From assembly GCA_950295325.1 (NCBI GenBank), contig OX485809.1, positions 5,084,001 to 5,148,000 on the forward strand: DNA of 64,000 bases, given 5' to 3'. The notes beneath the pieces are model-generated. The model was not told the DNA's origin. It did not search any database and saw nothing but the letters and a program-made list of their open reading frames with translations. Source of the DNA: Polytrichum commune. Its lineage: Eukaryota > Streptophyta > Polytrichopsida > Polytrichales > Polytrichaceae. Below are positions 17,809 to 48,575 of this stretch, in pieces. A program made the position numbers and the translations under genes. How positions within the stretch are numbered: the stretch's first letter is position 1; each line of letters starts with the position of its first letter.

Positions 17809-18576
17809 CTATGGTTTTCGCACAATCTCTAGAGGCATCAAGTCGTGCCGGACGGAGTCCGTGTGGGATTGCGTGACTGCCAACTTCATTGGGTCGTTAT
17901 GCGGCACCGGTGGTTGCCCAAACCGATTAGTGATCACAAAATCCCGGACGTCAGTAATTTGTGCATTGAACATGCGCTGGAAGAAGGGCAGGAAAACTGC
18001 AGTCATGTCTGCGGTTGCCAGTCTGTTACTGGTAAATGTGTTGGGAAACAAAGCATTCTCGTCTGGATTACAACACGATTTGTAAGGGCTGTCGTCCACA
18101 AGAATAGTGTTAGAGGTTGTGGCAGTAATGCGCCCGGAATCGAGTGGTTGTGGTGGCCACCAGAACGCTCTGAGCAAATTCTTAAAATACATGACAGATT
18201 CTGGCTTTAGTGGATTCCTCAGCTCATTGTTCCACATGTCTTTGTATGTGGTGCAATCCTCTTGCCCAAGTACAAGCGAAGGCTTGGGCAGCTCGTCAAA
18301 TAGATATTGCACCAGAAGTCGGACAGTGGATCTTCTCATGGAAGACCATATGCAAACATGAAACATTTCAAACATCTTCTCCCAAAACAATTTGTAGCCA
18401 AGTCTAGGGAGCACAACTTTTGGCCCGACAAATGCGGGAATTTTGTCCGGTGCACGATCTTGCATGATCCATGTGGGGACAGTTACCATCTCGCGGCGAC
18501 GAGGAAGACAGTGGCAAAATATGCCATTCAAATTGAACACCACAATGAATCTGCGTCCGCGTACATCAGCAATCGC
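17809..18576 (-). CDS. FCP1/NIF-like HAD-fold domain exon (copy 1)
   Basis: This exon begins after CGGCAG with AIADVRGRR and ends at a TAG; it is 768 nt, exactly the length of the equivalent exon at 47720-48487. It shows the FCP1/NIF HAD layout: FIVVFNLNGIFCH for motif I, VCIWSSMR for motif II and TILVDDSPYKS for motif III, with LVLGQEDC between. FCP1-type enzymes dephosphorylate phosphoserine proteins such as the RNA polymerase II tail using DxDx(T/V). Here both motif-I aspartates are asparagine (NLN), so the nucleophile is missing and the domain is predicted inactive. In copy 2 only the second is changed. Confidence 0.7.
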   Translation of the reverse strand, partial: AIADVRGRRFIVVFNLNGIFCHCLPRRREMVTVPTWIMQDRAPDKIPAFVGPKVVLPRLGYKLFWEKMFEMFHVCIWSSMRRSTVRLLVQYLFDELPKPSLVLGQEDCTTYKDMWNNELRNPLKPESVMYFKNLLRAFWWPPQPLDSGRITATTSNTILVDDSPYKSCCNPDENALFPNTFTSNRLATADMTAVFLPFFQRMFNAQITDVRDFVITNRFGQPPVPHNDPMKLAVTQSHTDSVRHDLMPLEIVRKP

Positions 18577-19873
18577 CTGCCGACACGAACCACTGTCAAC
18601 TTCTTTTCCTACTGAACTAACTGAATATAAGAAATTACAACTCTTCACTGGATAAGTACCTTCGTATCCGAGCAACATATATGAATAGTAAGTTTTGTAA
18701 TGAGATTGATATGAACTAAGAAGCCGATACCTCGAACGATATGGGATTGAATTCCCAGCGATCGGAAAGGCCTAGGGAGTCTTGAGGACCCCTAGACATT
18801 AGTCTTTTAGCACTCCAATCTCCCGATCGAATACTCGGGGTGTGGTCCTACCGACTTTCGAGTAGTTATCACCATAAACAAAGAGTTTATCGTTAACAAG
18901 GTGTGTGAGGGGCGCATCCAGAGCCGTTTGCGTGTATGGTCCATCCTGAACCCAAAACTATTCGATGATAAATGAACAACGTTGTAGACAAGAATGAGAC
19001 CATGTATGAATTTCACATTCCAGTGGGCCAATATTCAGGTGTGGGTAACTTACATTGACTGGATTATTCGGCCGTATGGTGACAATGTCAGCAATACGTT
19101 TGTCTTCCTGCTTGTTGGGCATAGCTGGGACTCCGCCATACAGAGTTGACTTCACTGCCGTGGAGCTTGGATAGAAGTCGTCCCGTTCGGTATATCTCTT
19201 CACCGCCAGAGGGAGGCGATTGATATTTGCTCCGTCTGTAGGAACAACATCCACAATAGCTGCAACGGGCTTGGACCTATCAGGCGAGCCTCCGGAAGAC
19301 GGTGGTACAGGTTTGGAGACAAGAGGTGTGGTCAGTGGGGGCTTCGAGGCCACAGGCTTAACTACATGAGTGACTAGAAGATCGCCTTCCACACCATCGG
19401 GCGAGTCGTTTGGAGGAATAGATGCGCCAGGAGGGGCGTCCTGATCAGGTGCACATTTGCACAGAGCGGCCATAGAGCATGTCGGCGGCGACGCTAAATC
19501 AATGATCGTCAAGGGAGCCTGCGGATTGAAAGGCGTTGTTAAAGAGCGCAAGATAACACACCTCATTGCATGAAATATGGCTCAATGCTCACTTTATTGA
19601 AGACATTGGTGCAAATGTATGTTACAATTCCTAGACGGAGCAATCTCCAGTTCACTGTGTACGCTAGTGTTTAAGGTACATGTACACTACATGAATGGCA
19701 CTACAAATCTAGGGCTCCCGATAAATTAGCCACGTCCTATTCGCCAAGTGACTGTCCTATGGCGCGCGACCTCCGACCTGGATCAAACATCCAGGTGGAG
19801 ATTCAGTGACCAGCAGAGAAAAATTCAACAATGCACATTGATTCTAACCAAGGTCAGGCACATTGATTCTAAC

Positions 19874-22018
19874 CTGTTTGTCTGCTGGTTGCTCCTCTTC
19901 CAATGGCAATTCCACCTCGACGATGTCTGTTTGCGCAGCGACCTCCTTCTGGTTGGTGTCGTCCAATACAAGTGCAGGTTCCGTTTGGTGGGGAGTAACA
20001 ATATCCACTTGATCGAGTGGATCTTGCCGTCCCAGGGTCTCCTTTGGCACCTCAACAGCAAGGGGCACATGCGCTGGAGACGCAGCTGGCTGGGGCAGGG
20101 TCTGGGGCGATGGCATGGCTTGGGCCATTGCGTCCTTGAGCAGGGAGGATAGCAAGCCAGGCAAGGCCTTTCCCAATATGCCCATCATCTTCTCTTCCAG
20201 GGCGGCCTCTGTAATTGGAGGCTCCACCGGCGCCTTATGGCGTCACTTATGCCGATCCTTGGATCCTCGACTTGATCCACGAGACGTCTTCTTAGGCGTG
20301 TCCGCGTCTGCACTAGGCCCGACATCACTGGTGGGTGGTATAGACGTGATTGGCGCTGCATGAGCCGGTTCATCCACCTCTTTAGGGGGACTGGGAGGTG
20401 TTGGTGGACGGGTCTCGTTGTCGGCGTCGCTCAGTGACGGGGGCGTAGCATCGATTTGGCTAGGGTGGTCGTGGTCGTCGTCGTGCTCGATCTGGCTAGG
20501 GTGGTGGTCGTCGTCATGACCGTGTTCGTGACCTTCCTCATTGCGAGGCTCCTGAGCATTGTCTTCCTCCTCCTCGTCCAGGTGAGCTTGGCTGGAAGTT
20601 GCAAAGTCGAGGGTTTTGGCCTGTAGTGGCGAAGGCTCATAAGCACGAGGAGCAGAGTCAGGTTCTTCCATTGGAGTCTGGCAGATGGCCACCTCGTCGT
20701 CAGAGGGGGGGTCATGACCAGTGGATTCCGCCTTATCCACGGCGTCATCTGTGTCCTGCTCACTAGGAGCCTCCTCCGATTCATCATCATCCACCACGAC
20801 CTCATCTTCGGCCTCGTCCAGGGGATCCACGTCAATGTCCACGTCGTCTTCCAGTCGAATGTCCTCCTGTAGTTGGAATTCAACAATTAGAAGTGCAAAA
20901 AACGAGGATGAAAATGTGAAGGTAAGTGAAAAGACAGGTTTGCGAAAACTTACCAAAAGCATGGGAGGGGAAGCGACACGGTCTTGACGAATTTGCCCAT
21001 CGTGGGTATCATTGTCTTCGTCTTCATCTTCGAAGTCTGCTAGACGAAGCTGCCGCACTCGATCAATCATCGGCTCCAGAGTATTGATGAAGGCCGAATC
21101 CATATAGCAGAAGACGTTGAAGTCGTGCATCAAGGCGGCCGCAATCAGTTTCAGACCCCCAAAGAAATTCAACACCATCCCGCCAGGGGAACCCAAGAAT
21201 GACAGAAATTTGATATAAACTTCCATTCGAAGTTCGCCTCGATTCACTTCAAAAGACAACTCCGACCAATCTTTAGGGTTCGCTTTGTAGTGGGGGACAT
21301 CATCTGCTATCATAGGGCACTGGAAGACCTTCCATTTGGAGAGGACTTTTGGGCACACGAAGTAGTCGATGTAGATAGCACTGGAAGACCTCTTGCTATC
21401 TATTTCTTTGTCACGTGGCATATCCTCCGCAGGGCAAGGAAAATAGAAAGACGGGACGATTTGAAATGTATCAGCATGTCGACGTTGAAGAGCCGACATG
21501 AATTCTAATGCGGCAGCATGGTTTCGAATGTCTGAAACAATCATCCATGCAGGGACAGACTTTAGCCCAGGTGTCCACTCTGCAGAAGTTATGTATTTGA
21601 GCAGAGACTCCACGACGTCTTTGCTGACTGGTTGATCCACATTGCCAGGGAAGAACCTGAAGTCCAAAAACCCTGCCGCTAGTATGCATTTAGAAATCCA
21701 ATGCACATCATAAGTATCCTGCTTGGGAATCACCAGTCTTCTCTTGAGGACATTGTGAGACACCCACCGCGTGACGACCTGCCCAACACACTCGTTGAAG
21801 TCTGCTTGAAGCCACTTTCGTAGCATACGGTCGCATGCAGGGTTCGCCTCGAGGTTCTTGTAGTTGGGAGACCTTTTTTTGTTCAACCAACTGTCATCGG
21901 CAACCTGATATAGCTTCACCCATCTCGCCTTCGTGATGCCCCGACCGCGCTTAAATTTAGTCCACACATCCCGGTTGACGCATTCATAACCCTCCGAATC
22001 CCTGATTGTCGCGCACCT
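19874..22018 (-). CDS. MTase-like Rossmann fold plus acidic linker (copy 1 exons)
   Basis: Two exons separated by an 87-nt intron (20953-20867, GTAAGT to CTACAG) that is itself stop-free. The first carries a motif-IV-like FLDFRFFPG followed by WMIVSD, then LRMEVYIKFLSFLGS, and a motif-I-like MVLNFFGGLKLIAAAL followed by FCYMDSAF. This order (IV before I) is that of beta-class DNA amino-methyltransferases, but the catalytic DPPY/W is replaced by DFRFFPG and the glycine loop is altered. The second exon is a long Asp/Glu/His-rich linker (for example DDDHHPSQIEHDDDHDHPSQ) ending in a Pro-rich tail. An in-frame TGA at 20243-20245 interrupts it. The same segments occur in the same order at 44421-47379. 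Confidence 0.55.
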
Positions 22019-22987
22019 CTCCATGAGGAGTGGCCGAAACACCATGGGCACAAGGGGGACCCCGGAGTGACACCCGGGACTTGTGGCGCCGTTGGTGAGA
22101 GGGCCCAAGTGATCCTAGTGTGGGTGAGGGCCCCGGGCGTTGGGAACGCCTCCCACCCACAAAGACTAGGAGGCATGAGGGTGAGGCCATGAGCTATGCG
22201 TAGCTCATGGCGTGGTGATTCTAGAATGCTCAAGATCACCTCAATCGGAGGTGTGAGCTAGGAGTTATGGCCATTTGAGTGGGGTGCTGTCCCGGGACAG
22301 CGCCCTGGTACAGCAGTGCCTGGGAGTGATTCCCGGGACTGCCAAGGTTCAAACAGGCATAACTTCCTCAAGACTTTCCCGAATGGGGCAAGTGAGGAGT
22401 CCATCGGCATCTACGTGAAGCGTAGATGAAGATGGAGTGGTTGGTTGTTATGATCAGACATCATACAAGGAAGTTATGATGGTCTGAAGCTGCTGGGGGG
22501 GGGGTTCTAGGCCCAGCAGCTAAGGGAAAATGTCCACTTGGCCCCAACTCTTGGTAGAGAGACAAGAGGTTGGTTGACGGTGGGGTAGGGGCCCCGCGTG
22601 AAGTCCTAGAGGCTTATATGGGTGAGGTGGTGTGGCCTCACCCACCCGAGGCCGAACGGCACGGCCTCCATGGGCATTGGCCCATTGTGAGGCCATAGTT
22701 GCCTAGTATGGTTCGGGTTGTTGTAGTGTTGCTCCGGCAACGCGATGATCAACATAGGATTGGACTTCCATGGATGGAAGTCCACATTGGGGAAATGGGT
22801 TACCGATTAAGGGGTGAGTCCCGAAAGCAAAGTAGGAGGGTTGGTTCCCTCCTATGAACTATTGGTCCGGGGTAAGAGGAGCTATCCATTAGCATGGCGG
22901 AATGCGAAGGGTTAGCGCTCGTAACCTTTGCTAGAAACGAAAATTGGCAAGATTATTAAGGGACCTAGCAAGGGTTGCGACACTGAC
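22019..22987. other. GC-rich ~970-bp segment in an intron position
   Basis: A GTCAGT donor after the codons for GLW (exon end at 22988) and the resumption of homologous coding near 22018 place this stretch in an intron. It is far longer and more GC-rich than the other introns and repeats words such as CCCGGGAC. The homologous copy 2 has no intron here. An old transposon insertion is likely; I could not define ends or a duplication. Confidence 0.5.
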
Positions 22988-23500
22988 CCACAATCCAAGC
23001 TTATGAGGATCACGTGCAGCTAGCTCTTGGATCAGAATGTTCTTCCACTTTCTGAAATTGCACCATGATTTCAAGTTTGCGACTTTAATGTTCTTGCACA
23101 CTCGGAGTATGACCCGCCGAATACCCTCCCCTTCCTTCACGTCCAAAATACGTTTGGCAGCGAGGTAGAAGTATGCCCTAGTGAGACCCGCCAGATGTTT
23201 GAAAGTCTCCCTTGACAGCGGCTTACAAGCGTATGGCTTCTCGTCGAATGGAGTTGCCGATTTCGACTTCTCGTGGCGGGCTCGGCTTCTCTGTTGAGCT
23301 TCCAAATGGTCGTCCAAGAAGGTGCGACCTGGTTTGTCGGGGTTGATCAACGTTCCACTCTCGTGTGCCGTAAAAACCTTCTTCCACAACTTCGATGTTT
23401 CGTCCAGAGCCATAATCAGTGTCAGCTCAGCATTGAGGTCGGAGTGTGTAATTCCCCTTGCAATTGCTGTGAAGGAGGCCTCCATGCTCGTCATAAAATT
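22988..23500 (-). CDS. helical region exon of copy 1
   Basis: A 513-nt phase-0 exon between CTTGCAG and GTCAGT. Its protein aligns by eye with the start of the second exon at 44421: ELTLIMALDETSKLWKKVF versus ELKLITATEETWAIWLRIF, GTLINPDKPG versus GDLINPDAEN, YLAAKRIL versus YRAAQHIL, and SWCNFRKWKN versus EWCEYRKKKT. It lies between the ParB-like and MTase-like parts. No function is known to me. Confidence 0.6.
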
Positions 23501-23538
23501 CTGCAAGCACAAATTTCAAATTAGAAACAATATGAAGT

Positions 23539-23564
23539 AGGTTCCACTCGATCGAGTGGAACCT
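23539..23564. repeat. family-B palindrome in an intron of copy 1
   Basis: A perfect 26-bp palindrome with core CCACTCGATCGAGTGG, inside the intron between the ParB remnant exon tail (ends 23606) and the exon starting at 23500. Confidence 0.9.
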
Positions 23565-23689
23565 CTAGCAGGGATAGAAGAGCTAGTTTGTGTGAGTGAA
23601 CTGACCTTCCAAGCCTGAGTTTTTTCTGGGTCTGTTGAGCTGCCAGAGGCGTTCACTCGCTGTTTTTGTGGCCTATTTAACTTCACCCA

Positions 23690-23790
23690 TACCCTTCACC
23701 CTTCACCCTTCACCCTTCACCCTAAACCCCTAAACCCCTAAACCCCTAAACCCTAAACCCTAAACCCTAAACCCTAAACCCTAAACCCTG
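23690..23790. repeat. interstitial telomere-type repeat tract
   Basis: Several CCCTTCA units lead into CCCCTAAA and then CCCTAAA units, the plant telomere repeat. The tract lies between the N-terminal exon of copy 1 and the short coding tail that matches the end of the ParB exon of copy 2 (TQAWK versus NPKWQ at the splice junction). The ParB core expected here is missing. Shorter tracts of the same repeat occur near 37131-37150, 50427-50452 and 53509-53529. Confidence 0.85.
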
Positions 23791-24404
23791 TATGGAACCA
23801 CAGCGGTCTCTTGTAGCCTAGCCGTCTCGCCGGAGACTCCGGGAGCATCCACCAGTTTGCGTGGTCCCGTCTTTGACCTCTCTGTCTTTCCCGTATTGCT
23901 TCTACCTTCACCTGCCTTGGACTTACTCTTCTGCTTCCTTGATGCCTCAAACTCAGCAACCTCCCTCCTATTGAGGTCTTCTAGGGTATCCAATACGAAG
24001 TTAATAGCCTTTTTGGATATTCCTGACTTCATGATCCTTACAATCTCCTCCTTCTCCGTAGAAGGCAGGGTCGACAAAGAGCTGCTAAATGGCTCAATGT
24101 CAAAAGCGTGCCTCTTACAGTCAATTGATAGGACCCTTTGCTCAACCCCCTCTGTGACTGTAACATCCAGCCTCTCTCTAGCTCCCACTTGTGCACTTGT
24201 TATAGGATTTACAGGATTAGGGATCCAAGTATTTCCCACCTTATATAGGAATATTAGGGTATACCCAGCCTCTTTGTATCGCTTGTAGATTTGAATCGAC
24301 CAGTTGTGTAAATGGTTCTCTCTTATTAGCCAGTGGGGACCCTTCGGCCCTTGATGTAATGCCCCCACTAGGTCAGTCCACAGCACTTCCTTGTGCTTCG
24401 CCAT
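23791..24404 (-). CDS. N-terminal domain exon of copy 1
   Basis: The ATG at 24404 follows a TTGCAG acceptor, so a 5' UTR intron is likely, as in the other two genes. The protein reads MAKHKEVLWTDLVGALHQG. It shares a pattern with the N-terminus of the 43-kb gene: LHNWSIQIYKR versus VDNWTVIVEKD, and SKKAINFVLDTLEDLNR versus GKRLGRLLNNVTRVNG, followed in both by a Lys/Arg/Ser-rich linker. Coding stops making sense at the telomere-repeat tract. I recognise no named domain in this part. Confidence 0.5.
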
Positions 24405-24448
24405 CTCACCTGCAACATGCACAAATCAGTTAGTAAGTAGGTTGGGGT

Positions 24449-24670
24449 CACTTCCACTCGATCGAGTGGAAGTGGCAGTAGTATTGCATGTTGTTAACTT
24501 GTGTGCCTCACTCCAGTTCGCTATGTGCCCCCAGCCACGCCCACTTCCACTCGATCGAGTGGAAGTGGGCCTCAAACTGATGGCAAGCTGGCTGTGGCTG
24601 GCTGTGGCCAGGAGCTCGCAGCCACACTTCCACTCGATCCAGGCCACTTCCACTCGATCGAGTGGAAGTG
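24449..24670. repeat. family-B palindrome array upstream of copy 1
   Basis: Three palindromes and one truncated half-site: 24449-24474, 24539-24570 (32 bp, perfect), a half-site at about 24626-24640, and 24645-24670. The core is CCACTCGATCGAGTGG flanked by CACTT/AAGTG. The array begins 45 bp upstream of the start codon of the minus-strand copy 1 gene. Confidence 0.9.
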
Positions 24671-27613
24671 ACCAAGATATGTCCGTACAATATGTACAAT
24701 ATGTACAATATTATTGTTGCAGAATGTTTTGAGTTGATTATTGCAGAATATTATTGGGTTGATTTGTTCTTGGTTGAGTCGATTGGTTCATACTTAGTTA
24801 GTTTGTTCTTTGGTGTTGATTTATGAATACTGGTTGAATGCTTAGTATGGCAGAAGGGTTGAATGGGGGGCCATTTCAATATGGATACCTGAATGGCGAG
24901 CAGCATTTGAAGAATTCTCAAAATTATTGCAACAACCACAATTATTGCTTAATGCACTCACATTGCAGATCCTACTGGCGTTGCAGTCTTCCTACAAACA
25001 AGTCTCATAGCAGGAAATTGATTCCAATTGGGAATGGAGGGTGTGTCAAATGTGTAAATGGAGTTTCCCTTAATTGGACCGACTTCGCAATAACCGTCAC
25101 AAGGTATATGAATTAAAATACAGATTTCTACAATGCAATCCATCAGGGAAGAGTGGTGTGCAATGTGCAATGTGCAATGTGCTACCCTGATGCGATGTGC
25201 TATGTGCAATGTGCTACCATTGTGCAATGAAGGGCGTAACCCTTGGAGACAACTGCCAGTCTACAACAGGTTCATATAATCGGTTCAATAGCGATTCGCT
25301 TTTACCCCGAATATGTGCATGTTCATAGCTTGAAGGTGGTTATGGAATATAAGGAACCTATTTATAATGTATGGAGTCTGAAATTGAGCATCACCTGGTG
25401 ACACCCGAAGTGGAGTATGGTGTGTTCAAATCCACCCAGATTCTGGCTCTACACCTATACTTGTGGATTGGGTGGAGTGTTCAATCTAATGCATCACTAA
25501 AGATTGTGCACTTGAAATGTAATGCACAAACCAGATTGAAAGATGCGCGAAATTTTAAATGAAATGGGGAATGTTAGAGCAATTACCTTATGAAGCCTGT
25601 TTGGTTGTTCCTCCTGCCACCTTGCCTCACAGCTCCGGATTCCAGGTGCGCCCTCCTTGCTCTGCTCACCGCAATTCAAGCACCTCGCAGATAGCGGCGT
25701 GCCTTGATCACCGACTGCGGAGAGAAGAGGATCACCGACTGCGGAGAGAATAGGCGAGCACCACCAGAGCGAGAGTGCTCCAGCGCAACTTGAAGAAAGT
25801 TGAGGGAGGGATGCCGAGGGAGAGAGGTCATTGGGGGGGGGGGGCGTCCCATGGCCCGGATGGTCCAGATGCAGCCGTCGCAATGGACGGCCCAGATCGG
25901 GAGCGCCCAACCATTATGACGCTCGGGAGCACGTCCCATCGCTGGTAGTTGTCCTTAGTCTACATGGACGCCTGTGACGGTGTGGATTAATTGCGACTAG
26001 CTAAGTACCCATTAAACAACGATTGTTATTGGTAGTACCCCTTGGTTGTTTTACTAACGGCCACCTAAATGGCGTGTCCCATCATGATGGACCGACGTGG
26101 CGTGCGTTGTTCCAATTTGCTTGGAACTGTAGTATTTTCAATTCACCAATTAATATCACTTTCTTCCTCAATTCTCATTGTAAATTGCAAATAGCAAATT
26201 GCATGCTGTAGTGGGAATGGTGAATTGCATTGTAGTTGCAAATACATAATTGTGTTCATGCATAATATCACTTCTATGGATATGCAAGTACCACTTCTAG
26301 GGATATGATACATGTTGTGGATTGCAAATTGCAATCATTATTAGTAAATGTGACTTGCATTGTAGATTGCAATATTGCACCAATTGATGTTGCGCAGGAT
26401 TCGAGTTCGAGAGGAAATGGTCAACAATCCATGCCACTATATGCAAGTACCACTTCTAGGGATATGATGCATGTTGTGGATTGCAAATTGCAATCATTAT
26501 TAGTAAATGTGACTTGCATTGTAGATTGCAATATTGCACCAATTGATGTTGCGCAGGATGCGAGTTCGAGAGGAAATGGTCAACAATCCATGCCACTATA
26601 GGAGTTATCATATAAGAGGTCAGCCATCCATGCCTATAATTAAATACATATTTGTTGTGATGCAAAATAACGACATATCCACACGAAGATTAACCTTGAT
26701 GAATATGGTCGCGCTCATATGCGGTGTGATTATTTTACTCATTACTATATTGATGCATGTTGTGCAGTGTAAATTGCACTTGTAATATTGCACTTGGATT
26801 GCAATATTGCAATTTATAGGGCGCACGATGGGAGTTCGCATGTGAAAGGTCAACACTCCATGCCACTATAGGAGTGACCAATCTACAAATGGTCAGCCAT
26901 CCATGCCAGAATTGAAATACATATTTGTTGTCATGTAAAATTTGGACATATCCACACGGAGATTATAAATGAATATGGTACAACTCATATGACATGTAAA
27001 TGTCTCACTCATCATCGGGGTGATACATGTTGTTGATTGTAAATAGTAGTTGTTAATGTTGCAAAGGCTCCCAATTTTTTGTATGGGATTTGAGTAGGTG
27101 GCATGTCTAAACCCTAATCACATGCGGTGCTAAAATGAGTTTGACCCTCAATCGACTGATCATATAGAATGTCATTGGTTGCATCCTCCACATGGCCCCA
27201 ACACATGCACCTAAAGCTTACCGCTGTGGAAGGTTTGGAATTGCACCCAAATCCATACCAATTCTGATATTTGGTGTCCGTTCTTCATTACAAGCCTTTC
27301 CATGCACCACTCCTGTTTGTAGTCCACTTCAATTTACCCATAAATTCCCAATAAATTCACCCATAAATTCATGTTTTGGGTGCATTCTACTCGTATAGTG
27401 AGGATGCACTGAGAACTGTCAGTATGAATTTGAAACATGAGAGATTGTAAATTGCACCTAGGCAACAATTGGGCACAAATTTCAGTTGGGATGTAAGATT
27501 ATATCAAATGTAGTACTGGGTGATGCCTGGGACTATGTCATGTATTATCCCCCCAGAAAGATAGTTTGACAAATCAAAGTTGTTGGGGAATTTCGGAGTC
27601 CGCCTAACTAGTA
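24671..27613. other. repeat-rich region without genes
   Basis: Contains GTGCAATGTGC-type short repeats (about 25150-25230), a duplicated CACCGACTGCGGAGAGAA word (about 25709-25750), a poly-G run at 25836 and the 159-bp tandem repeat listed separately. Several frames up to ~137 residues exist but overlap on both strands and follow the repeats. No gene supported. Confidence 0.45.
26284..26601. repeat. tandem duplication, 2 x 159 bp
   Basis: Two near-identical 159-bp units starting GCAAGTACCACTTCTAGGG. Rich in TTGCAAT/ATTGCAA words. A more diverged third copy seems to follow to about 26880 (GGTCAACACTCCATGCCACTA). Confidence 0.85.
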
Positions 27614-27752
27614 CACAAAATATGATATTTAGTGTTAGATTACATTTAGTGTTTTGCCACCCTACTATGCTCAACACTAAATTTCAATTCTTTGATAATT
27701 AGCATTAAGACATAAATGCGTCACCACCTTCCCCACTACCATGTCCCTTCTC

Positions 27753-30590: not shown

Positions 30591-30595
30591 TTCTC

Positions 30596-30879
30596 CTTTT
30601 ATCATAGTTAATTTTTTTTCATATCCTTAATAACACTAAATTTGTGCATGTAACTTTCACATATTAGCATAGATGATTTTTATCGTTTGAGTTTACATTT
30701 AATGTTACCTACTTTCATAGGGTTAGACTAAGTGGTACTTTTATCATAGTTAATTTTTTTTCATATCCTTAATAACACTAAATTTGTGCATGTAACTTTC
30801 ACATATTAGCATAGGTGATTTTTATCGTTTGAGTTTACATTTAATGTTACCTACTTTCATAGGGTTAGACTAAGTGGTA
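30596..30879. repeat. tandem duplication, 2 x 142 bp, inside the MITE
   Basis: Two copies of the right internal part of the CACAAAATATG MITE, starting CTTTTATCATAG at 30596 and 30738. Confidence 0.85.
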
Positions 30880-31931: not shown

Positions 31932-31947
31932 TGCGGAGCTGCGGAGC
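31932..31947. repeat. 8-bp duplication breaking the transposase-like gene
   Basis: TGCGGAGC occurs twice in a row. One copy restores the reading frame from NVL through RTYLGWDTKK. An 8-bp duplication in a coding exon is what excision of an element with 8-bp target duplications leaves behind; replication slippage is the alternative. Confidence 0.85.
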
Positions 31948-38700: not shown

Positions 38701-41700
38701 TATAAGTGGCAAATTAACAAAGAGGGGAATAAATTATTCTTAACATGTAACAAAGTTTACATTCTAGTTAGCAATATGAGAGGAGTACGAATTTGTTAAC
38801 AAATACAATTATGAGTTAACATGTGGAAGTGTAACATTTATCGAGGGTGGACTCTAGCAATCACAAAAAAGACCAATAGACATATGCCACGTAAGGGTTA
38901 CATGTGGCCTTTGGGCGCGGGGTGATGGGACGTCTAGGTAGGGAGTGGATGCGACGTTTAGGGTTTAGGGTTTCGATACACTCCCTTGTTCATGCTCCTT
39001 TCGCTTTTTTTCTTCTCATTTCGCTCATTTCGCTCCTTTCCTCCTCGCCCACCACCGCTCCTTTGCTCCTCGCGCTTGCTCCTCGCCCTTGCTGGTCGCC
39101 CTTGTTGCTCCAGAGTATTCTCCTCCTTCTCCCTTGCTACTATTGTTGGTCCTCTTTCTCCTCCTCCTCCTTCTTGTTGTTTCTCCTCTTTCTCCTCATC
39201 CTTGCTCTTAGTTCCATAAGAGCGCCAGGAGCTCCAGGCAGGTGCTTTTTTCTTTCCCTCTTTGAAAGATGTGCTATTCCAGGTGCTAATTGATGCACCC
39301 CATGGGTCGTTCCCTTGCAATTTAGCTCAAGAAGACTCACGGTGAGACATCACGTAAATTTATATTCGCTTGAGAACTACCGTGCCTCATTAATATGTTC
39401 GGTCTCTAATTAATAATCCCTCTCTTCTCCTTATGATATGAATATAATTATTGGAGTGAACACAATCTCATTATCTTAATTCTTACTCACAATGTAAGGC
39501 ATCATTGATAATAAGAACCATTAGATTTAAAGAAAGCTTCAAGAGGTGTAACAATATCCTTGATAATAATATAGTATTCAATAAATTGTATGAATCCTTA
39601 ATGTTAGTAGTTCATAAACATTAATCACACAATTGATAATAATTTTATAATGATGAAGAAGATCTAATATTCTTGAGTCTTCATTTTTAAACTCAAGTGT
39701 TACTACTTATAATATTGTAACTTGACATGTATGCATATAGTAGTTATAATTTCATGAACACATCATTGATTGTTTTGCAATGTCACGTTTAACATTCAAA
39801 GTGTTTTAATGACAAGAATAATTATAACTCTCTTGAGGTTTATTCAAGAGAAAGAACTCCTCTTTGATTGTTAATGACATCCAACAACTCACAAAGTATC
39901 TTAAGAGAAGAAGCACTTTTACTACAAAGTGTTTCTTGATGACGAGAAGATGAACCCATCTCTCTTGAGTTTTGCTCAAGAGAGAGAGAGATCTTCTCTT
40001 GAATAGATAATCCTTCCAATTGTAATGACATCCAACAACTCACAAAGAATCTTAAAGTAAGAAGCTTCAATAACAATTGTAGTAAGTGGATTATCTTATA
40101 TCAATATTACTTCATTCATATGTATTCAAACTTTGCTATGAATTAATGTCTTCATCATTCTTGTTAATCATAAGTTCAACAATCAATATGTAGTATAATA
40201 TGTATAATACTTATAAGTCAATTATGTAGTTTTCAATAATAAGCTCCTCCTCTTTTGAAGGAGTTGCAATCGTTAAGTTGTTTTGCTTAAATCATAACAT
40301 GCATATAATTCTTCAATCATTCAATCACATGTATATTTATAATTCCCTTTTGAGGAGATCAATGATAAGTTCCACTTTGAGAGATAATCTTGTTTCCTTC
40401 ACTCAAGTTAACAATCGCTTTCTCAATTCAATCTCTCTCAAAGTCCCATTGATTCTCCAATTTGTCTTGAGCGCTTTGTTCTCACCCTCACACTATCTTT
40501 TGAGTTCTTTCTCAAAAGAGCCTACTCAATCTACTCTACTCTCGGTTGCTCAATCACTTAAGCTACAAAGTACCATTGACGACTCGTAGTTCAAATTGAG
40601 AGAGGTAGAAAGATCACACGCATTTGTAGAAAAGATAAGTGTATTGCAAAAGTTCCTCGAGATGAGAGTTACAAAAGCTTCAAGTGATTATTGACACTCA
40701 AATTTAAGATAACTTCGTTGTGTAGAAAATGAGGTAAAGGTCTCCTAATTTGCTTCCCTTATATAGTCTTTTCTATCTATCTTAAAATCTATACTAAGAG
40801 TGGTTGTTAACTTCCACTTTCCTAGATAGCTATCTTTCTTCAACATATGTAGATGCTATCTATCCTAAACGGTTATAACCGTTTCACTACTCTAATGTTC
40901 TCAATACTAAGATTTCACCATATCCTCCTTGAGAGTTAATCAAATCCTCGTACTTGATTGATTCTATTCCGGTGATTGATATTTAGAACATCCATTTAGA
41001 ATGTACCCTAGTCCTATATTCTCCTTAGTGTCTTCATAATGTCTCTTGAACTTTATATCCAAAATTCCCATATATTCCATAATCGTGCTTCATCAAAATC
41101 CTACATTCTAAACTATTCCATAATCATGCTTCCTTGGATATTCAATGCAATCCTAAATACATAATTATGTCTCTTTTATATCCCTTCATCCTCAAAATCC
41201 TATATTCTAATATATTCCCTATACCCCTTAATATGCCCTTTAATATTCCTTTAATACCTCCCTTAATATGCACCTCTAATAACTAAGCTCTCTTTGTAAA
41301 GGAGCTGGGTTTCCTATTTCCGTGGGTAGCGGACCCTATCTCCGCGCGTAAGTCGCGCATTGCCGTGGAAAAGGGGCCCTAAGGCCGTGGCCGCCTCCAT
41401 GGCCAAGCCCGAGGCCGAGTTCCATAGCCGAAGTTGAGAGCTTCTAAGTTCTTCTTCCAATTTCGGTGCCGCTCCATGAATTGCCTCTTGCTTGCTAGTA
41501 CCATTAGTTGCTTGAATGTGTTTTGCTCCTTAGGTCTGTGTTGATTTATAGTACCATTTGTACCTTGAATATGTTGTACTCAACACTAATTAGGTGATTT
41601 GAGTTTATGTATTGATGCACAAGAGGAGGATTGTGAATATTGTGTGAGTATGCAATGTTTTGTTGCACTCACAATTGCAAGTAACATCAGAAATTGAGTA

Positions 41701-42343
41701 GTTTTTTGCTTGCAGTCTCATTAGGACATTAATGGAGTAGTTTCAGTTGTTGCAAGGGTTTTAGGGTTGGAGTATTTTCAGTTGTTCCAGAGTGCTCCTC
41801 CTTTCAGTTTGTAACTGTCTTCACTTCACTTGAATTCACTTTTTCCTAGTTCTAAGAAATCATGTGTTTTGCTTTGTTCACTTCAATGTGATGTTCATGT
41901 TCAATCCAGTGCAATCTTTGTAGTAGGGGTTTTTTTGTGGGTTTGATGCATTTGAGGAGCAACACACAGTTTAGTTGATTCTTGAATGTGCACATTGCAT
42001 TACCAGAGGTTTCTAACTTCAAATTTAGTGTTATTTTGCAGTCTCTCCTAGCTGGAGCTGTGGTTTAGAAGCAAACATTGTACAGAGGTAAGTGTTTCTA
42101 GTACATTGCAAATTGAAATGGAACATTCTTCTTAGATTGGAATGTAGAATCTGCTATTGCAATGCAACACCTGATACAGTCTAATTTGGAGTGCAAATCC
42201 ATGTTGCATTCCAAGTTAAGATGAACATTGCACATGAATGGAATGCAACAAAGAAGCTGCTCCAAAAATTTCGGAACAATATACAGAAACACATTAATTG
42301 AGCAAATTAATTAAATTCAGAGTAATTAAAAAATGGCCTGAAG
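35752..42343. other. AT-rich region without a convincing gene
   Basis: About 6.6 kb between the two family-A arrays. Contains a short CCCTAAA tract (about 37131), a CT-rich low-complexity block (38980-39230), a duplicated ACATCCAACAACTCACAAAG word (about 39878 and 40028) and a GC-richer block near 41300-41450. Frames such as 38904-39293 and 40278-40589 are low-complexity or unsupported. Confidence 0.45.
38980..39230. repeat. CT-rich low-complexity block
   Basis: Polypyrimidine-rich repeats of CTCCTCGCCCTTGCT and CTCCTTCTCC words. The frames read Leu/Ser/Phe-rich on one strand and Glu/Lys-rich on the other, as expected of simple sequence. Confidence 0.8.
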
Positions 42344-42966
42344 TTTACGGACGCGCGTCCGTAAACTTCAGGGAACCCTGGGAATATGCATCGCACTAGG
42401 TGTGAACAGTTTACGGACGCACGTCCGTAAATTTTAGATATATTTAAAAAGAACTATTTAAAAACATGAATGAGAAGTTTACGGACGCACGCCCGTAAAC
42501 TTGAGATATATAAGTATACTAAATCAAATACATGACAAATGTGCAGAGTTTACGGACGCGCGTCCGTGAACTAGGCAGAGAAAACTATGAAAATCTCAGA
42601 GTATAATACATGTCATGGGTTTTCAAAATAAGTTCTACAAAATATACAAGTTCTACACAACAAAAATAAATTTATTTTCCAAAAATTTACGGACGCACGT
42701 CCGTAAATTAGGGCTATATTATTATAAAAAATATATTATATTCATGAAATATAGAAATAGAGACTTTTGGATGATATATGTGCAGAGTTTACGGACGCGC
42801 GTCCGTAAACTCTGCACATATATCATGAATGAGATTTCTTTTTATAAGATATATCAAGTTTTACGGACGTCCGTCCGTCCGTAAACTTGATATGTACTAT
42901 ATAATAATACTTAACCCCATTCCATAAGAAAGGGTACGCAAAGGTTTACGACTGCGCGTTCGTAAG
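42344..42966. repeat. family-A palindrome array upstream of the 43-kb gene
   Basis: Eight palindromes: 42344-42365, 42410-42431, 42478-42499, 42549-42570, 42686-42707, 42788-42809, 42860-42885 (expanded centre GTCCGTCCGT) and 42945-42966 (degenerate). Steps are often 66-72 bp. The copy at 42788 is the core of a perfect 56-bp palindrome (42771-42826). The array ends 54 bp before the start codon at 43021 and may include its promoter. Confidence 0.93.
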
Positions 42967-43020
42967 ATAGGCTCTGCATCCCTAGACCTTAATACTGACT
43001 TGTATATTTTACATTTGCAG

Positions 43021-44307
43021 ATGGAATCTACAAAAAGACCCGCTATTGATATATTCGCAGAGCTTGTCCATCCTCCGCTTCCAAAAGCAATTAAAGACAT
43101 AAGCCACAACGACCATTACAAGCCACGCGAAGACATCGTAGATAACTGGACAGTTATTGTAGAAAAAGATGAAAATGATATATTTGTCCTTAGATTTGCC
43201 TATCAAATAAAAGCAGATATACATGAATCCGAGAAGTGGATGAAGGTTAAAAGCTGGACAGTAGAGTGTGCGGTAGCCCAAGGCGATTATGTTGTCATGG
43301 ACCTTGAAAAGAAAAATGATAGGATCACAATCATTTTGCACGAGTTGTACCATCCGTTCAACAAAAATGAATGTGAAAATGCCAGCCCAGATGCGTCTTG
43401 CTTCAATCTACAGAATGAATTCACTGACTATGCTTGCAATGCACCCTGGACGGGTAAACGGCTTGGTCGTCTCTTGAACAATGTGACAAGAGTAAATGGG
43501 GCCTTACTGGAAGCGAAGAAAGGAAAGGAGAAAAAACCAGTTCCTGAACGACCTAAACGTGTTCCTAAATACGTGCCAGAAGCCTCTAGGCCCTCACAGA
43601 GTGGAACATCAAGAGGGAGCAAGCAGGCCAGTAAACGCTCTCACTCACAGATGGAGTCATCTGGGCTAACAGAGGGTCCAGATGTGAGTTCTACTCTTAC
43701 AGTCGCCCCACTTCTCAAGAAAGGACAACGCCCGGACGCGGAACTATCCACAAAGATTTTCCAAGAGTTCGACGAGAAGACAAAGGGCTGCTGGCCACTT
43801 GGAAGGTATTTCACGTTTGATGTGGATGTATACAAATGCCACAAGGGCACGGAGAGTATGAATACTCGTGCCAAAGAAGAGAGCGGGGTGTGGTGGCAAA
43901 TGAATAACATTATGAACAACCCCAAGTTTGATAGGCAAACGATATGTGTGACACCAAAGGATCATGTGGTTGAAGTCACAACGCAAAATTGGCCAATCCT
44001 CAAAGATGGAGAGTTCTACATAGTCGACGGCCAACATAGCGTGATGGCTGCAAAAGCTCTCCTCGAGGACGATGAGTGAAAGAGTCCTTTGAAAGAGACA
44101 ATCCGATACTGGAAGGCATTTGTCGTCCATTCCAAAGACTCGAACCAGCTCATCGCAATATCTGCCTTCATGAACCAAGGGAATAAAGTGAGGCAGTTCG
44201 AGGCTTCATGGGCTGCCAACATCGTGGCTGGAAGGACCTTGTGGGTGGAGCACGATTGTCCCCCAAAATAGAGGGAGAATGCAGTCATCAAGAATCCCAA
44301 ATGGCAG
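43021..44307 (+). CDS. N-terminal and ParB/DGQHR-type domain exon (copy 2)
   Basis: The ATG is the first triplet after a TTTGCAG acceptor, implying a 5' UTR intron. Residues 1-170 are the domain shared with copy 1. A Pro/Ser/Lys linker follows (about 170-225). From about residue 255 the ParB/Srx-like domain reads CWPLGRYFTFDVDVYKCHKG ... GEFYIVDGQHSVMAAKALL, with the signature Gly-Gln-His at about 337-339, then after an in-frame TGA YWKAFVVHS and AFMNQGNK, the usual positions of the last strands and the Asn-rich helix. A second stop (TAG, 44269) precedes the end KNPKWQ. ParB/DGQHR domains bind DNA or CTP or act as nucleases; the role here is unknown. Confidence 0.7.
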
Positions 44308-44324
44308 GTATGTCTCTGTATATT

Positions 44325-44346
44325 TTTACGGACGCGCGTCCGTAAA
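44325..44346. repeat. family-A palindrome in intron 1 of copy 2
   Basis: A perfect 22-bp copy in the 113-bp intron 44308-44420. Confidence 0.92.
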
Positions 44347-44420
44347 CCTCTTCCTCCTTCCCATTCTTTAATTCCTTCAATTTAAACTCTGCTGACTTCT
44401 TGAAATGCATGGCTGTGCAG

Positions 44421-47379
44421 ACATTCAGCAATGCGATCTTGACAAAGTTCTCCAGCATTGACCTGAAGACGAGCGGCATGAAGACGGTGCAGGAGTTGAA
44501 GGGGGAACTTAAGCTCATCACTGCCACAGAAGAGACATGGGCAATTTGGTTGCGCATTTTCGATGCTCACAACAATGGAGACCTTATCAACCCGGATGCT
44601 GAAAACACGTACAAGAGCGACTCAAAGGTTAAAGTGCCACCTATCCTGAGAGAGTTCTTTCGTCCCCTCCAAGGATTGCTCGACTCCGAGCTTTACAGAG
44701 CGGCACAACACATCCTGTTGGAGACTCCGAGGAGGACACTGCCCTACCCCAAAATCTTCCTGAAGCGACCAAAGCACATGAAGCCTTCTACATACCACAT
44801 TAAGGAATGGTGCGAATACAGGAAGAAGAAGACCATGGCTATAAGGGAGATAAGTAAGCTGCTGCCCTCCCACAACCTCACTAATACAGATGGGGAGATA
44901 ATGTGGGAAAACTGGAGGACGCTCAAGGAGGAGTATCACATCAATGGGGTCTCCATGCGATCATTGATAAGAGGCGCATCTCCCTTCCTAGCCCAAAGAT
45001 CTAGGAGGAACGAGAAGAAAGGGTCTATCGACGAAAGAGAGACGGCGTTGTACGTCCATTTCCTTGACAGAAAAAAGAAAGCAAAATTCGGAGGGGTCGC
45101 AAGATTCTGCACTGTTACAACGGCCTTGAAGTTTGGCACATGGGACACACATGCTTCAAGAGCCTCTGTGAGAGATGACCCCCGGGGTTGTCCGTTCGCA
45201 CTCTTTGATTTCCGTGCATTTCCCGGATCTTGGAGACAAAACGCTAGCGGGACCGCTTTCTATGACAACTTCTTCAAGGCCTTCAAGAGCTATCGGTCGC
45301 CTGCCCTCTTCGAGCCAAATGTGTGGCTCTGGATCGTAGATCAAGAGAGGTCCGCGTCGGTCGTCCAGCTTTACACATCGACGATGAACCTCCAGTACGA
45401 TCTTCACCACAGCACATACATCCCCGCGAAGACGGAAAGGATCAGTGTTATTGAAGAGGCAAGAGGGGCGAAGCAGGTCGGGGCTTTGGCACTTTATTTC
45501 TTGACACACAAGTCTTCACCAAGTGGGCGGATGCCTATCAAAGCGTAGAACGTGTTCAAGAAAGTATACTCATTGCCACCACCACACCCAAAGGAGCTTG
45601 TCGCGGAGACTATGTATGCACTCTACCCGGCGTACGAACTCCGAATGGATTTTTATATTGGAGTCTTGAAGGTTGTGACTGTGATGAGTGAAACAGTCTA
45701 CAACGTCTTCGGAGGCACCAAATTTGTTTACGCGGCATTGGTAAGTACTTGTATGCACCTCTTTCCATGCTCCATCTGAATTGAAATTTACGGATGCGCG
45801 TCCGTAACATTGCCCACCACATATGCAGTGCAAATTTACGGCCACGCGTCCGTAAATTGCAGTGCTTCATGATTATATTTGTCCTCATACTTGCTCGCAA
45901 CAATGGAATAACTATAATTTCCTTGTTTTGGTGCAGATGTTTGGGTTGCAGGTAAATTTGTTTGTGGAGGCTCGCGACATGGATGAGGCGAATACTCATA
46001 GGGTTCTTGCCTCCAAAATGGATATTGAAGACATCATCGATGTCCTTACCCCCCATCCTGTGGTGCCTCTTGCCTCAAGAGAAGAGGGAACTCCTGCGAC
46101 GGAGTGGGACAGTGACGGAGACCAAGAGCCCGTCTCCCCAAGAGAGCAGCCACCCAGAGAAGATCACGTGCCCGGCCTTGTTCGTGATCCTGTTCATCCT
46201 CATCAATTTGTCTTGGGCGAAGACCGCATGGATACAGAGGGGGCGCATGAAGACTTCACTCCAATAAGGGTCCATCCTACCCCTATTTCCTCCCCCTTTG
46301 GGACTCCCACTTCTCGAGTTGGGTTTCCTTCCACTGCGGGTCCATCGCGTGCTGTTGGGCTTATGACAGAGAAGGATGTGGACGTTGCGACAGAAGCCGG
46401 ATGCACAGCCTCATCTGGAGGGGGATCTGAACATGCAGAGCTACCACCTATGGAGGGTAGAGATGTGCTGGAGTTGATTTTGAGGCCGGATATCGCCTCA
46501 TACCGTGAGAGTCGTCGACAGAGGAAGAAGACTCCTTACAACGAGTACCCTGAAGGCGCCGTCTTGGAATTCTCCGATGAAGACGAGGATGAGGTTAGGA
46601 TGTACCATGCCCTCTCTGCCTTGCCTTCTGAACCTGGCAAGGTGAAGAAAGAGCCGATGTCTGTGGCCGAATTGGACGAGAAACTGGAGAAGAGAATGAA
46701 GGAAGAGCTTGACCAACGGCTTCGAGAAGCTAACGAGGAGCACGCCAGAAAGATGGCCGCCATCCAAGCTGAGATGGAGGAGGCTAGGTTGGAGTCTGCT
46801 CGAAGGCACGCCGATCTCATGGCTCAAAATCAACAATTCTTGGCCCAGAGCCAACAATTTATGAGCCTCATGCAGAGCTTGCAAGCAAGACCCCCAGTAA
46901 TGTATGCAGCTCCCGAAGCCTGCATGTCGATGCCTCCCACTCTCATGCGGCCTCCGTCTAGTAGCCATACGGTGTACATACCAGAGCATACCTATCCAGC
47001 CCCCGCCTTGTATGTCCTGCCCTCTCCCCAGGTTGCCGACACCCCAGAGCCCTCCTCTCATAGCGTACGAGAGGAGGAGAGACCTGCACGTTATACGGCA
47101 GGTGCTCACGAGAAAGGCGCCATTGAAGACATCACAACCATTGGCAGCCAAGAAGATGAAGATATGCGGGGCAGCCAAGAGGATGAACATATGCGGGGCA
47201 GCCAAGACACCACAGATGAAGATCAACCTCATGTCGATACCCAGGGGTCGCAAGCGGTTGGAGGCGCCTTGGTGGTGGAGGATAGCATGCACAATTTTGC
47301 GGACGCGCGTCCGGAACCTGTGCCCACGATGGGGCCTGGTGAGGGAGGCATTGCTGGCGAGGACCTCTCCGTTGAAGAG
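44421..47379 (+). CDS. MTase-like fold, coiled coil and acidic tail (copy 2, exons 2-3)
   Basis: Exon 2 opens with the helical region (LKLITATEETWAIWLRIFDA, EWCEYRKKK). It then has a motif-IV-like FDFRAFPG (about residue 692 of the model) followed by VWLWIVDQERS, and after the TAG at 45546 YELRMDFYIGVLKVV and the motif-I-like NVFGGTKFVYAAL. Intron 2 (45741-45936) falls inside this loop; exon 3 resumes MFGLQVNLFVEARDMD. The order IV then I is beta-class. DPPY/W is absent. Exon 3 continues with a coiled coil (about 46680-46880, EELDQRLREANEEHARKMAA), a Gln/Met-rich run, Pro-rich sequence and acidic GSQEDEDMR repeats. The same order occurs in copy 1. Confidence 0.6.
45787..45856. repeat. two family-A palindromes in intron 2 of copy 2
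   Basis: Copies at 45787-45808 (one substitution in the left arm, GATGCG) and 45835-45856 (GGCCACGCG centre). Confidence 0.88.
47296..47317. repeat. family-A palindrome inside a coding exon
   Basis: TTTGCGGACGCGCGTCCGGA lies in frame in exon 3 of copy 2 and encodes FADARPE. It keeps the symmetric GGACGCGCGTCC core. Confidence 0.85.
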
Positions 47380-47407
47380 GTAATCCACCTTTGAGCTTGC
47401 CTCCCAC

Positions 47408-47429
47408 GTTACGGACGCGCGTCCGAAAC
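47408..47429. repeat. family-A palindrome in intron 3 of copy 2
   Basis: TTACGGACGCGCGTCCGAAA, shortly after the proposed donor at 47380. Confidence 0.88.
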
Positions 47430-47719
47430 TTCCTTGTCTGCCAACTTCGTGGCGTGTACATATTGTCGAGTTCGATGCTCGACTTTGCCCGGCGGGTGGA
47501 TGCAATTTTGCCAGCATAGATTCAATTAGTTTTAGGGGAGACCTTTTGTGACAATGTAAATTATTCGCGAAATGTATTAAACCAATCACATTAATACAAA
47601 TTTTTTGAACTGCGTATTCGTATTTTTTTTGCCTTATATTTGTTTGTTGAGTTTGTGCATGCTTGTCAATTGGTTTTCATGGGTAGTACCATTCACCTAG
47701 ATAGTATTTTCCATCACAG

Positions 47720-48487
47720 GGTCCGTCGGAGATATGTCGCAACCCCGCTGAAAGACCAAGCCGGCCCATGAGGAAACCGTTCATAATATTTGACCTCAAT
47801 GGGGTGCTTTGTCATTCCATGCATATCTCCAATAGTGCGTCGAAGGGTCCCTTCCGTAGTCCACAAGACATGGATTACGGCGGACAGTTCGATACTCTCA
47901 TTAACAAGAAGGTTGTACGGGCCCGGCCGAGGTTGAGGTGCTTCCTTCGTGATGTCCTTGGCTTGGCCCATGTCATCATCTGGAGCTCTATGCTCATGGA
48001 CAACACGAAGGCCATCGTCGGTTTCCTTTTCCGAGAACTCGCAATGCCATGCTTGCTTCTCGGTCAAGAACACTGCGATGACCTTTATGACCGTAATGGC
48101 AACATTGTACCCAAGGTCGGAGGAGGCCGAGGGCCTCAATTCCTAAAGGTACTGAGGAAGAACCTTTGGGTGGGCGTCCCTATGTTGGAGGGGGTGCCCC
48201 ACGGTTGTTGGCCCACCCCGGAGAACACGCTCCTCATTGACGACAGCCCGGCAAAGAGTATTCTCAATCCCCCGGGCAGTTGCATATTCCCGGATCCTTG
48301 GGAGAGTGATAGAAATGACAACTTTCTAGAGAATGAACTAGGACCCTACATTAGGAGGCTTGCCTATCACCCCGGAAGTGTCCCGGATTTTGTCCTCTCC
48401 AACCCCATTGGCAATAGGCCTCTAGGCCCAAGAGATGAGGAATTTAGGAGGTTGTACGGCTATGCCAAACTCAATAAATTAATATGA
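47720..48487 (+). CDS. FCP1/NIF-like HAD-fold domain exon (copy 2)
   Basis: After a CATCACAG acceptor the frame reads GPSEICRNPAERPSRPMRKP and runs 768 nt to TGA, the same length as the copy 1 exon. Motifs: FIIFDLNGVLCHS (motif I with the nucleophile Asp present and the second Asp replaced by Asn), RPRLRCFLRDVLG, VIIWSSM (motif II), LLLGQEHC, and TLLIDDSPAKS followed by NPPGSCIFPDPW (motif III and the FCP1-type tail). A plant clade of FCP1-like proteins also has DLNG, so a host origin of this domain is plausible. If the upstream splice is not used, the ATG at 47768 starts a 239-residue stand-alone protein. Confidence 0.78.
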   Translation, partial: GPSEICRNPAERPSRPMRKPFIIFDLNGVLCHSMHISNSASKGPFRSPQDMDYGGQFDTLINKKVVRARPRLRCFLRDVLGLAHVIIWSSMLMDNTKAIVGFLFRELAMPCLLLGQEHCDDLYDRNGNIVPKVGGGRGPQFLKVLRKNLWVGVPMLEGVPHGCWPTPENTLLIDDSPAKSILNPPGSCIFPDPWESDRNDNFLENELGPYIRRLAYHPGSVPDFVLSNPIGNRPLGPRDEEFRRLYGYAKLNKLI

Positions 48488-48575
48488 GAACTGCTTTTTG
48501 GGTTTGTACTTGGACTCTCCATGTTTATATCTAACATTTCTCCCCGTATTTTGTAAATGTATTTTTGTGTCTTAG

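Follow-up and report, generated by a model that had tools for sequence, protein, structure and literature searches.

Why would a moss carry two diverged copies of a gene whose product seems to join a ParB-like region, a methylase-like region, an acidic stretch and a HAD module? The two genes lie in a 64,000-nucleotide stretch of the Polytrichum commune genome (assembly GCA_950295325.1, contig OX485809.1, positions 5,084,001 to 5,148,000; "the window" means this whole stretch), copy A at 17809-24404 on the reverse strand and copy B at 43021-48487 on the forward strand. Both are remnants of transposons from large families, called elements A and B here. In element B the gene stands divergent from a putative transposase gene, and inverted repeats whose arms differ from family to family accompany it; its product may be a DNA-binding regulator that each family encodes for its own copies.

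Two nested transposons and their shared gene

Are the two genes copies of one? Aligned exon by exon they are homologues, and the shared modules all match: blastp of copy A against copy B gives E 4e-15 for exon 2 and 3e-24 for the HAD exon, and tblastn of an A-clade relative, F6 (L029), against copy B gives E 7.5e-17 for the ParB exon, 7e-20 for the methylase-like exon and 1.4e-25 for HAD. The landmarks picked out in a preliminary description of this DNA (DFRxFPG, FGGxK...AAL, LINPD, AAxxIL and GQExC) occur in both. The common domain order that it proposed holds for the remaining modules, which are homologous, but copy A has lost its ParB core and keeps only the N-terminal part of exon 1 (24392-23790) and its last 28 residues (23695-23612). 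What it took for two diverged copies of one gene are indeed related; the unit, however, is a transposon: the gene is an accessory one carried by a large family of DNA transposons, and element B is nested in element A. A HAD exon of exactly 768 nt, noted there as common to both, was rejected as a shared constraint: the figure for copy A hinges on the choice of acceptor, and HAD lengths differ among families (open HAD frames of 257-282 aa across the loci read). The CAG/ATG at the start of copy B is compatible with the proposed intron in the 5' untranslated region. The exons are as follows.

43021-44307, forward strand: copy B exon 1, coding for the N-terminal domain and the ParB-like core with its GQH box; in-frame stops at 44077 and 44269
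44421-45740, forward strand: copy B exon 2, an N-terminal half and a methylase-like C-terminal half (DFRAFPG, FGGTK); stop at 45546
45937-47379, forward strand: copy B exon 3, acidic, including a charged stretch that looks helical; phase-0 donor GAG/GT at its end
47720-48487, forward strand: copy B exon 4, HAD, FCP1/SCP-like, motif I DLNG; Pfam NIF E 1.4e-11
17809-18576, reverse strand: copy A HAD exon, motif I NLNG; Pfam NIF E 4e-7, and alignment
21128-23506, reverse strand: copy A methylase-like exon (DFRFFPG; FGGLKLIAAAL), interrupted at 22.0-22.99 kb
23612-24404, reverse strand: copy A exon 1, reduced to the N-terminal part and the final 28 aa, no ParB core
23681-23789: CTTCACC and ACCCTAA (telomere-type) arrays that replace the ParB core of copy A

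Copy B thus has three in-frame stops; in a related element, F2 (L016), all four exons are open, so intact copies exist outside the window. How many copies are there? The genome search proposed in the preliminary description finds many: the HAD exon of copy B has 150 scored matches among 1,228 candidates, 140 of them stop-free, in groups at about 100, 94, 89 and 64% identity, and that of copy A has 148 among 1,046. The transposon that carries copy B has both of its ends in the window.

31064-49760, forward strand: element B, a DNA transposon copy with both ends, delimited by alignment with other copies and by its terminal inverted repeats (TIRs); 18.7 kb, including a 2.3-kb nested insertion
31060-31063: left target-site duplication (TSD), ACTC
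49761-49764: right TSD, ACTC
31064-31101, forward strand: left TIR (AACACTATATTCG...); a related 38-mer has 91 exact places in the genome, control 0
49731-49760, forward strand: right TIR (...CGAATATAGTGTT); 99 exact places in the genome, control 0
31923-34848, reverse strand: DUF7869 gene of element B (PF25273, Pfam E 4.8e-40), a putative transposase; the F6 homologue matches it by tblastn, and it is divergent from the ParB/HAD gene
39292-41585: nested insertion of 2.3 kb within element B, seen in alignment with other copies
49765-57744, reverse strand: element A, continuing past the nested element B; aligned by a related element, A2, at 52019-57744 and by F6 at 50066-50555

The left TIR in the window is one base off the 38-mer counted genome-wide. 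At least 26 elements have both TIRs exact, a lower bound drawn from 68 of the 91 left-TIR places and 34 of the 99 right-TIR places; 11 of them measure 16.2-16.6 kb, 10 fall between 17.3 and 23.7 kb and five exceed 34 kb. All 20 B-type elements checked at both ends have an identical TSD of exactly 4 bp, against 4 of 380 mispaired controls. These 20 are the window element and 19 of the 26 (five longer than 24 kb were left aside, as were two read earlier, whose TSDs are ATAT and ATTT); two share identical flanks, leaving 19 independent cases, and TSDs were checked in B-type elements only. An ordinary pair of host genes was rejected on copy number, TIRs and TSDs.

Element B sits inside a decayed element A: A2 (L033 and L032) aligns over 25500-31005 and resumes at 52019. 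The transposase half of element A was not found within the window. The recognisable part of element A ends at a CA-rich simple-repeat region (57744-58300). A 2.8-kb repeat of high identity lies in element A at 27752-30590 and also interrupts a B-type element in L015, and is therefore a separate, recently mobile repeat. In another locus a B-type terminal repeat begins directly after the HAD exon of an A-clade copy, F7 (L030:9599); elements insert into each other.

What moves these elements? The putative transposase matches a single family model, DUF7869 (PF25273), and in element B its gene has an intron around 33225-33360. Among the 120 B-clade HAD matches used for pairing (of 150, the 30 at 63-65% identity being omitted), 97 have one of the 130 DUF7869 matches used (of 143) no more than 60 kb upstream, and in 96 of these pairs the two are divergent; the downstream control gives 5. 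In the A clade the DUF7869 gene is present in A2 and in an F6-type copy, and the latter begins with AACACTATATT near this gene. The protein is 55-61% identical across clades and 88-100% among 143 scored B-type matches. From its position and conservation, DUF7869 is likely to be the transposase. The 4-bp TSD is compatible with the Sola superfamily; Sola1 elements make a TSD of this length. The accessible text of PMC3627910 gives a 4-bp TSD for Sola2 as well. No mention of DUF7869 was found in the open-access literature searched.

Palindromes that differ between families

What else do the elements carry? Inverted repeats are found in eight of nine element loci, with 0 matches in 27 dinucleotide shuffles, and five types can be told apart.

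Elements B and F2: TTTACGGACG-NN-CGTCCGTAAA
Elements F3 and F4: TTTACGAACG-NN-CGTTCGTAAA
Elements A and A2: TTCCACTCG-AT-CGAGTGGAA
Element F6: TTTCACTCG-AT-CGAGTGAAA
Element F9, longer, 8 sites: GGAGGTTCCTCTCG-NN-CGAGAGGAACCTCC

All five have CG on both sides of the spacer, which is 2 bp long and variable in B, F3, F4 and F9; the arms vary symmetrically between families, and the inner arms of F9 (TTCCTCTCG) differ from those of A at one position per side. When exact arms are required, the table of motifs by loci is diagonal with a single exception, an F3/F4-type site found in F2; if each arm may differ at one position, related motifs of the same clade also hit one another. Exact genome counts are 1,097 for the 16-bp core of B, 46 for A, 2,909 for F3/F4 and 237 for F6, and each reversed control gives 0. 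A chance origin was rejected on these zero counts and on the shuffles. At G000:C1:640864-646099, F3/F4-type palindromes are densely packed; many have GG as their spacer and some form regularly spaced units, possibly another subfamily.

Where do the sites lie? In the window they are distributed as follows.

33294-35751: seven inverted repeats of the B motif on the transposase side, with at most one mismatch per arm
42344-42885: seven B-motif inverted repeats directly ahead of the ParB/HAD gene on its 5' side; the spacer of one is 6 bp long
44325-44346: B-motif inverted repeat in intron 1
45787-45808: degenerate B-motif inverted repeat in intron 2
47301-47312: 12-bp core of the B palindrome in exon 3 (coding)
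47413-47424: 12-bp core of the B palindrome in intron 3
23542-24667: four element A palindromes, TTCCACTCGATCGAGTGGAA, with two more at 57724 and 58274

On the transposase side of element B, the first repeat (33294) falls within the presumed transposase intron and the other six lie upstream of the gene; the sites keep away from the TIRs, the nearest being about 2 kb inside. F2 repeats this layout: all 16 full sites, in a map that leaves about 1 kb at the left end unread, are outside the four exons, seven beside the start of the transposase gene, six just 5' of the ParB gene and three in introns. For the A type, the nearest A-clade HAD exon within 40 kb has the site on its upstream side in 42 of the 46 exact cases (38 of them at most 7.3 kb away) and on its downstream side in none, as measured against the 66 of 148 HAD matches that belong to the A clade (above about 59% identity); for the remaining four sites, no HAD exon is listed in that range.

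A likely fused protein and its proposed role

Is the gene translated as one protein? The module order is an N-terminal domain and ParB-like core (exon 1), the methylase-like part (exon 2), the acidic part (exon 3) and HAD (last exon). The intron before HAD is phase 0 on both sides, as the preliminary description had it, and its GAG/GT donor and phase-0 acceptor are kept in copy B, F2, F3, F4, F6, F7 and F9; A2 is frame-shifted in the exon preceding it. In F3, exons 1 and 2 lie within a single open frame. In the HAD exons of F3, F4, F6, F7 and F9 the frame holds no methionine from the preceding stop up to the start of the core, so an upstream exon is needed, and a HAD gene with its own ATG was rejected on this ground. 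With the junction conserved in seven sequences from both clades, the single product proposed at the outset is well supported, and a fused transcript is likely on these sequence signs.

The modules are maintained. The ratio of nonsynonymous to synonymous substitution rates (dN/dS) in the HAD exon is 0.15 for copy B and F2, 0.19 for F3 and F4, 0.25 for F6 and A2, and 0.44, the highest, for F9 and F7; between F3 and F4 it is 0.07 in the ParB exon (at a dS of 2.3, near saturation) and 0.14 in the methylase exon. The ParB, methylase-like and HAD modules are under purifying selection; the estimate covers these three exons, and many distant pairs are saturated.

What are the modules? The assignment of the last one is secure by sequence: Pfam NIF exceeds its cut-off of 21.8 bits in both copies (30.3 bits in A, 44.8 bits in B), bearing out the earlier identification, and the family profile finds SCP1 among PDB structures (best E 1.2e-4). 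However, DxDx(T/V) is absent: motif I reads DLNG in eight of nine aligned sequences and NLNG in copy A, and the residue two positions after the first Asp, the usual general acid/base of HAD enzymes, is Asn in all nine. The methylase-like part has likewise changed where catalysis would reside. The catalytic [D/N/S]PP[Y/F/W] is not present, its position being taken by DFRxxPG in the aligned families and YFRAIPG in F2, and the acidic and small residues typical of motif I are missing. That both parts have lost their catalytic residues, and in a conserved manner, suggests enzymes that have turned into chromatin readers. Pfam and NCBIfam return nothing above cut-off for the ParB and methylase exons, only names far below it; a PDB sequence search with the exon-1 profile has as its best hit an unrelated protein (E 0.046), judged a chance match; tblastn with the ParB core against phages reaches E 3 at best, in one phage (two records, one with a ParB-like annotation); and in IMG/VR no relatives of ParB, methylase, HAD or DUF7869 were confirmed.

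If two of its parts are no longer enzymes, what would the protein do? A DNA-binding regulator encoded by each family would fit where the sites lie (near both gene starts, in introns, off the ends), their family-specific arms and the upkeep of the protein. By analogy with the transposon protein VANC and the bacterial protein VirB, we propose, giving it an even chance, that the fused protein binds the palindromes and is a self-specific anti-silencer of its own transposon family, built of ParB, methylase and HAD parts. Dimers of the product would use the ParB/N-terminal part to bind the parS-like sites of their own element. The methylase-like and HAD-like modules, lacking the usual catalytic residues, would work by binding or competition, not by catalysis. 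Once loaded at its sites, and perhaps spreading from them like a clamp, the protein would shield both promoters of its own transposon family from host DNA methylation or silent chromatin, and the transposase could then be made. The ParB core ranks first or second in conservation among the parts in all five pairs examined, and the N-terminal domain falls below it each time, so our first guess is that the N-terminal part sets arm specificity. More tentatively, each lineage might co-evolve its protein with its own parS-like CG-NN-CG repeats, with loading and spreading, while the dead methylase-like and C-terminal domain (CTD) phosphatase-like modules would read host silencing and transcription factors or act as decoys for them; we hold this fuller version possible, though doubtful.

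Several results weigh against this reading, and many concern the ParB and methylase parts. A genome search with Pfam ParB_N (PF02195) misses the elements and yields three matches, on small bacterial-looking contigs; the best ParB match in PHROG, phrog_1033 (ParB-like), is weak: of six members one, the L016 homologue, reaches E 0.019. hhalign places GQHSxxAA on the GxRRxAA of phage and bacterial ParB with P 0.008 and a probability of only 4.9%, and FGGxK..AAL (motif I) on the FAGSGAT of phage methylases with P 0.017 and a probability of 2.7%. The CTP-binding arginines of GxRRxxA are not present, all six sequences having GQH[ST]xxA; no helix-turn-helix was identified; and the AlphaFold models are uninformative, with mean confidence (pLDDT) of 33 for the ParB region and 37 for the methylase region. 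A third mobile gene in the window, ParB-like by eye, compares with the ParB profile at P 0.17, which is not supportive. As to the sites, three of 54 full sites lie in exon bodies, all in exon 3 (two in F3, one in F4), as counted over five loci (L016, L027, L028, L029 and L031) with exon limits set from the list of open reading frames (ORFs) and splice signs; F2 has one 14-bp core within exon 3; no palindrome was found in the 10 kb of F7 (L030) that was read; and some sites stand in tandem units, so that part of the count reflects array copying. Finally, F6 and F9 differ in their arms and have similar ParB cores (77%), so specificity may lie elsewhere. The swapped hhalign controls give P 0.34 and 0.45. 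The ParB and methylase folds named in the preliminary description, absent from Pfam and NCBIfam results and from confident structure predictions, are left with weak matches in the correct positions, and the relationship of the fused protein to both families is probable and distant.

Could the sites serve another reader, or another purpose? A self-marking methylase would bind the palindromes and methylate them (N6-methyladenine or N4-methylcytosine) as a mark of its own transposon, much as is proposed for Ectocarpus Sola1 in the available text of PMC12477816; the sites are CG-rich and the motif I-like stretch aligns with that of phage enzymes, but the replaced DPPY position and the altered motif I described above make this unlikely. 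If the palindromes were instead subterminal-type repeats used by the DUF7869 transposase in transposition, with some other role for the ParB/HAD gene, their location inside the element and around the transposase gene would be expected; yet they lie off the TIRs, beside gene starts and in introns, and their arms change while the transposases stay as similar as they are within and across clades, and we regard this use of the sites as rather improbable.

Host factors deserve the same scrutiny, as the palindromes occur near both gene starts and, in several families, in tandem units: they might be sites for host transcription factors, or promoter or insulator repeats, that spread with the elements and have no reader encoded by the transposon. 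Against this, their sequence differs per family, the arms change symmetrically and the sites are closely associated with the elements (the 42 of 46 A sites), and we think it improbable that the host alone reads them. A ParB-like box together with palindromic arrays also calls to mind a partition or pairing system of the ParB/parS kind that tethers or segregates element DNA. We give that very little credence: no ParA-like gene was recognised among the listed ORFs of element B, although no search aimed at ParA was made, the sites are near promoters and in introns, and a chromosomal transposon needs no partition.

Neighbouring features and known systems

The window holds further features outside the two fused genes.

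60115-63516, reverse strand: third mobile gene, with ParB-like (GNHR) and methylase-like stretches recognised by eye only; its upstream palindrome array falls largely beyond the window
48576-49450, forward strand: small ORFs between the HAD exon and the right TIR of element B; 48576-49055 is similar in F2, F3 and F4, and 49001-49450 in F2
596-1135, forward strand, and 4382-4939, reverse strand: two small cysteine-rich proteins, related by eye, likely ordinary host genes
14902-15831, reverse strand: 309-aa ORF, internally duplicated by eye, with no Pfam family above cut-off

In the third mobile gene Pfam finds no family and no HAD was seen by eye. Its first segment has 150 scored genome matches, and palindromes of its own type, AGGCCTCGGATCCGAGGCCT, number 32 and 27 in two copies (L087 and L088), all upstream of that segment; genome-wide there are 2,137 exact sites, against 0 in the control. 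If this gene is ParB/methylase-like, the link between gene and palindrome array would be independent of the HAD module.

How new is the combination? The preliminary description held it to be undescribed, which goes too far for the ParB-methylase part: such a transposon protein is already published (PMC12477816) and phage fusions exist. The addition of HAD did hold up, in that no mention of a HAD module in ParB-methylase proteins, or of family-specific palindromes, was found in the open-access literature searched. The HAD module itself resembles the SCP1/FCP1 CTD phosphatases (NIF, PF03031) in scoring above the Pfam cut-off and in finding SCP1 structures, and differs in having DLNG for DxDx(T/V) and in being fused to a transposon protein.

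The phage fusions likewise place ParB before an N6/N4 methylase in one protein, and 10 of 129 matching phage records span at least 80% of such a fusion. Contigs C12 and C23 (L075-L077), small, bacterial-looking and probably assembly contamination, hold a phage-like ParB-methylase fusion and a ParB pair. Unlike the moss proteins, the L075 fusion has DPPY and FxGxG intact and is without HAD, and D..PY and F.G.G are invariant in a seven-sequence alignment. A survey of ParB-fold fusions (PMC12704722) describes phage methylase fusions; the terms plant, moss and transpos are absent from its available text.

A closer parallel is Sola1-1_Ec32 of Ectocarpus, whose 1104-aa protein with ParB-like and DNA methyltransferase parts is encoded divergently from the transposase; the available text of PMC12477816 suggests that such proteins may bind and modify their own element and cites similar ones in green and red algae. 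Both systems are giant DNA transposons with an accessory gene on the strand opposite the transposase, with ParB-like and methylase-like parts and a proposed action on the element itself. The moss elements, in a plant host, add a HAD/FCP1-like module and an acidic region, and have a degenerate methylase motif and family-specific palindromes. These palindromes would be the missing half of that proposal: candidate cognate sites, different in each family and present in thousands of copies in this one genome, where a function had only been suggested.

What, then, of the two precedents for the role proposed here? VirB, by the available account (PMC10653881), belongs to the ParB family and acts from a parS-like palindrome to relieve silencing. 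The moss protein would share with it the family, the kind of site and, by inference, the role against silencing; VirB is bacterial and plasmid-borne, its CTP binding has been shown, and methylase or HAD modules go unmentioned in that account. In Arabidopsis, VANDAL transposons encode VANC proteins; these recognise short motifs that recur in the non-coding DNA of their own transposons and are not the same from family to family, according to the available parts of PMC5735166 and PMC10398659. Here the likeness is a transposon-encoded protein and a short motif repeated in non-coding DNA, often in tandem, that differs between related families. The VANC21 motif, in contrast, is a 9-base non-palindrome (YAGTATTAY), the moss ParB and methylase exons match no Pfam family above cut-off, and VANC activity is demonstrated, that of the moss protein being proposed. 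Were the proposal true, VANC-like self-specific anti-silencing would have evolved independently from a prokaryotic partition protein, and the moss families would offer a source of sequence-specific binding domains.

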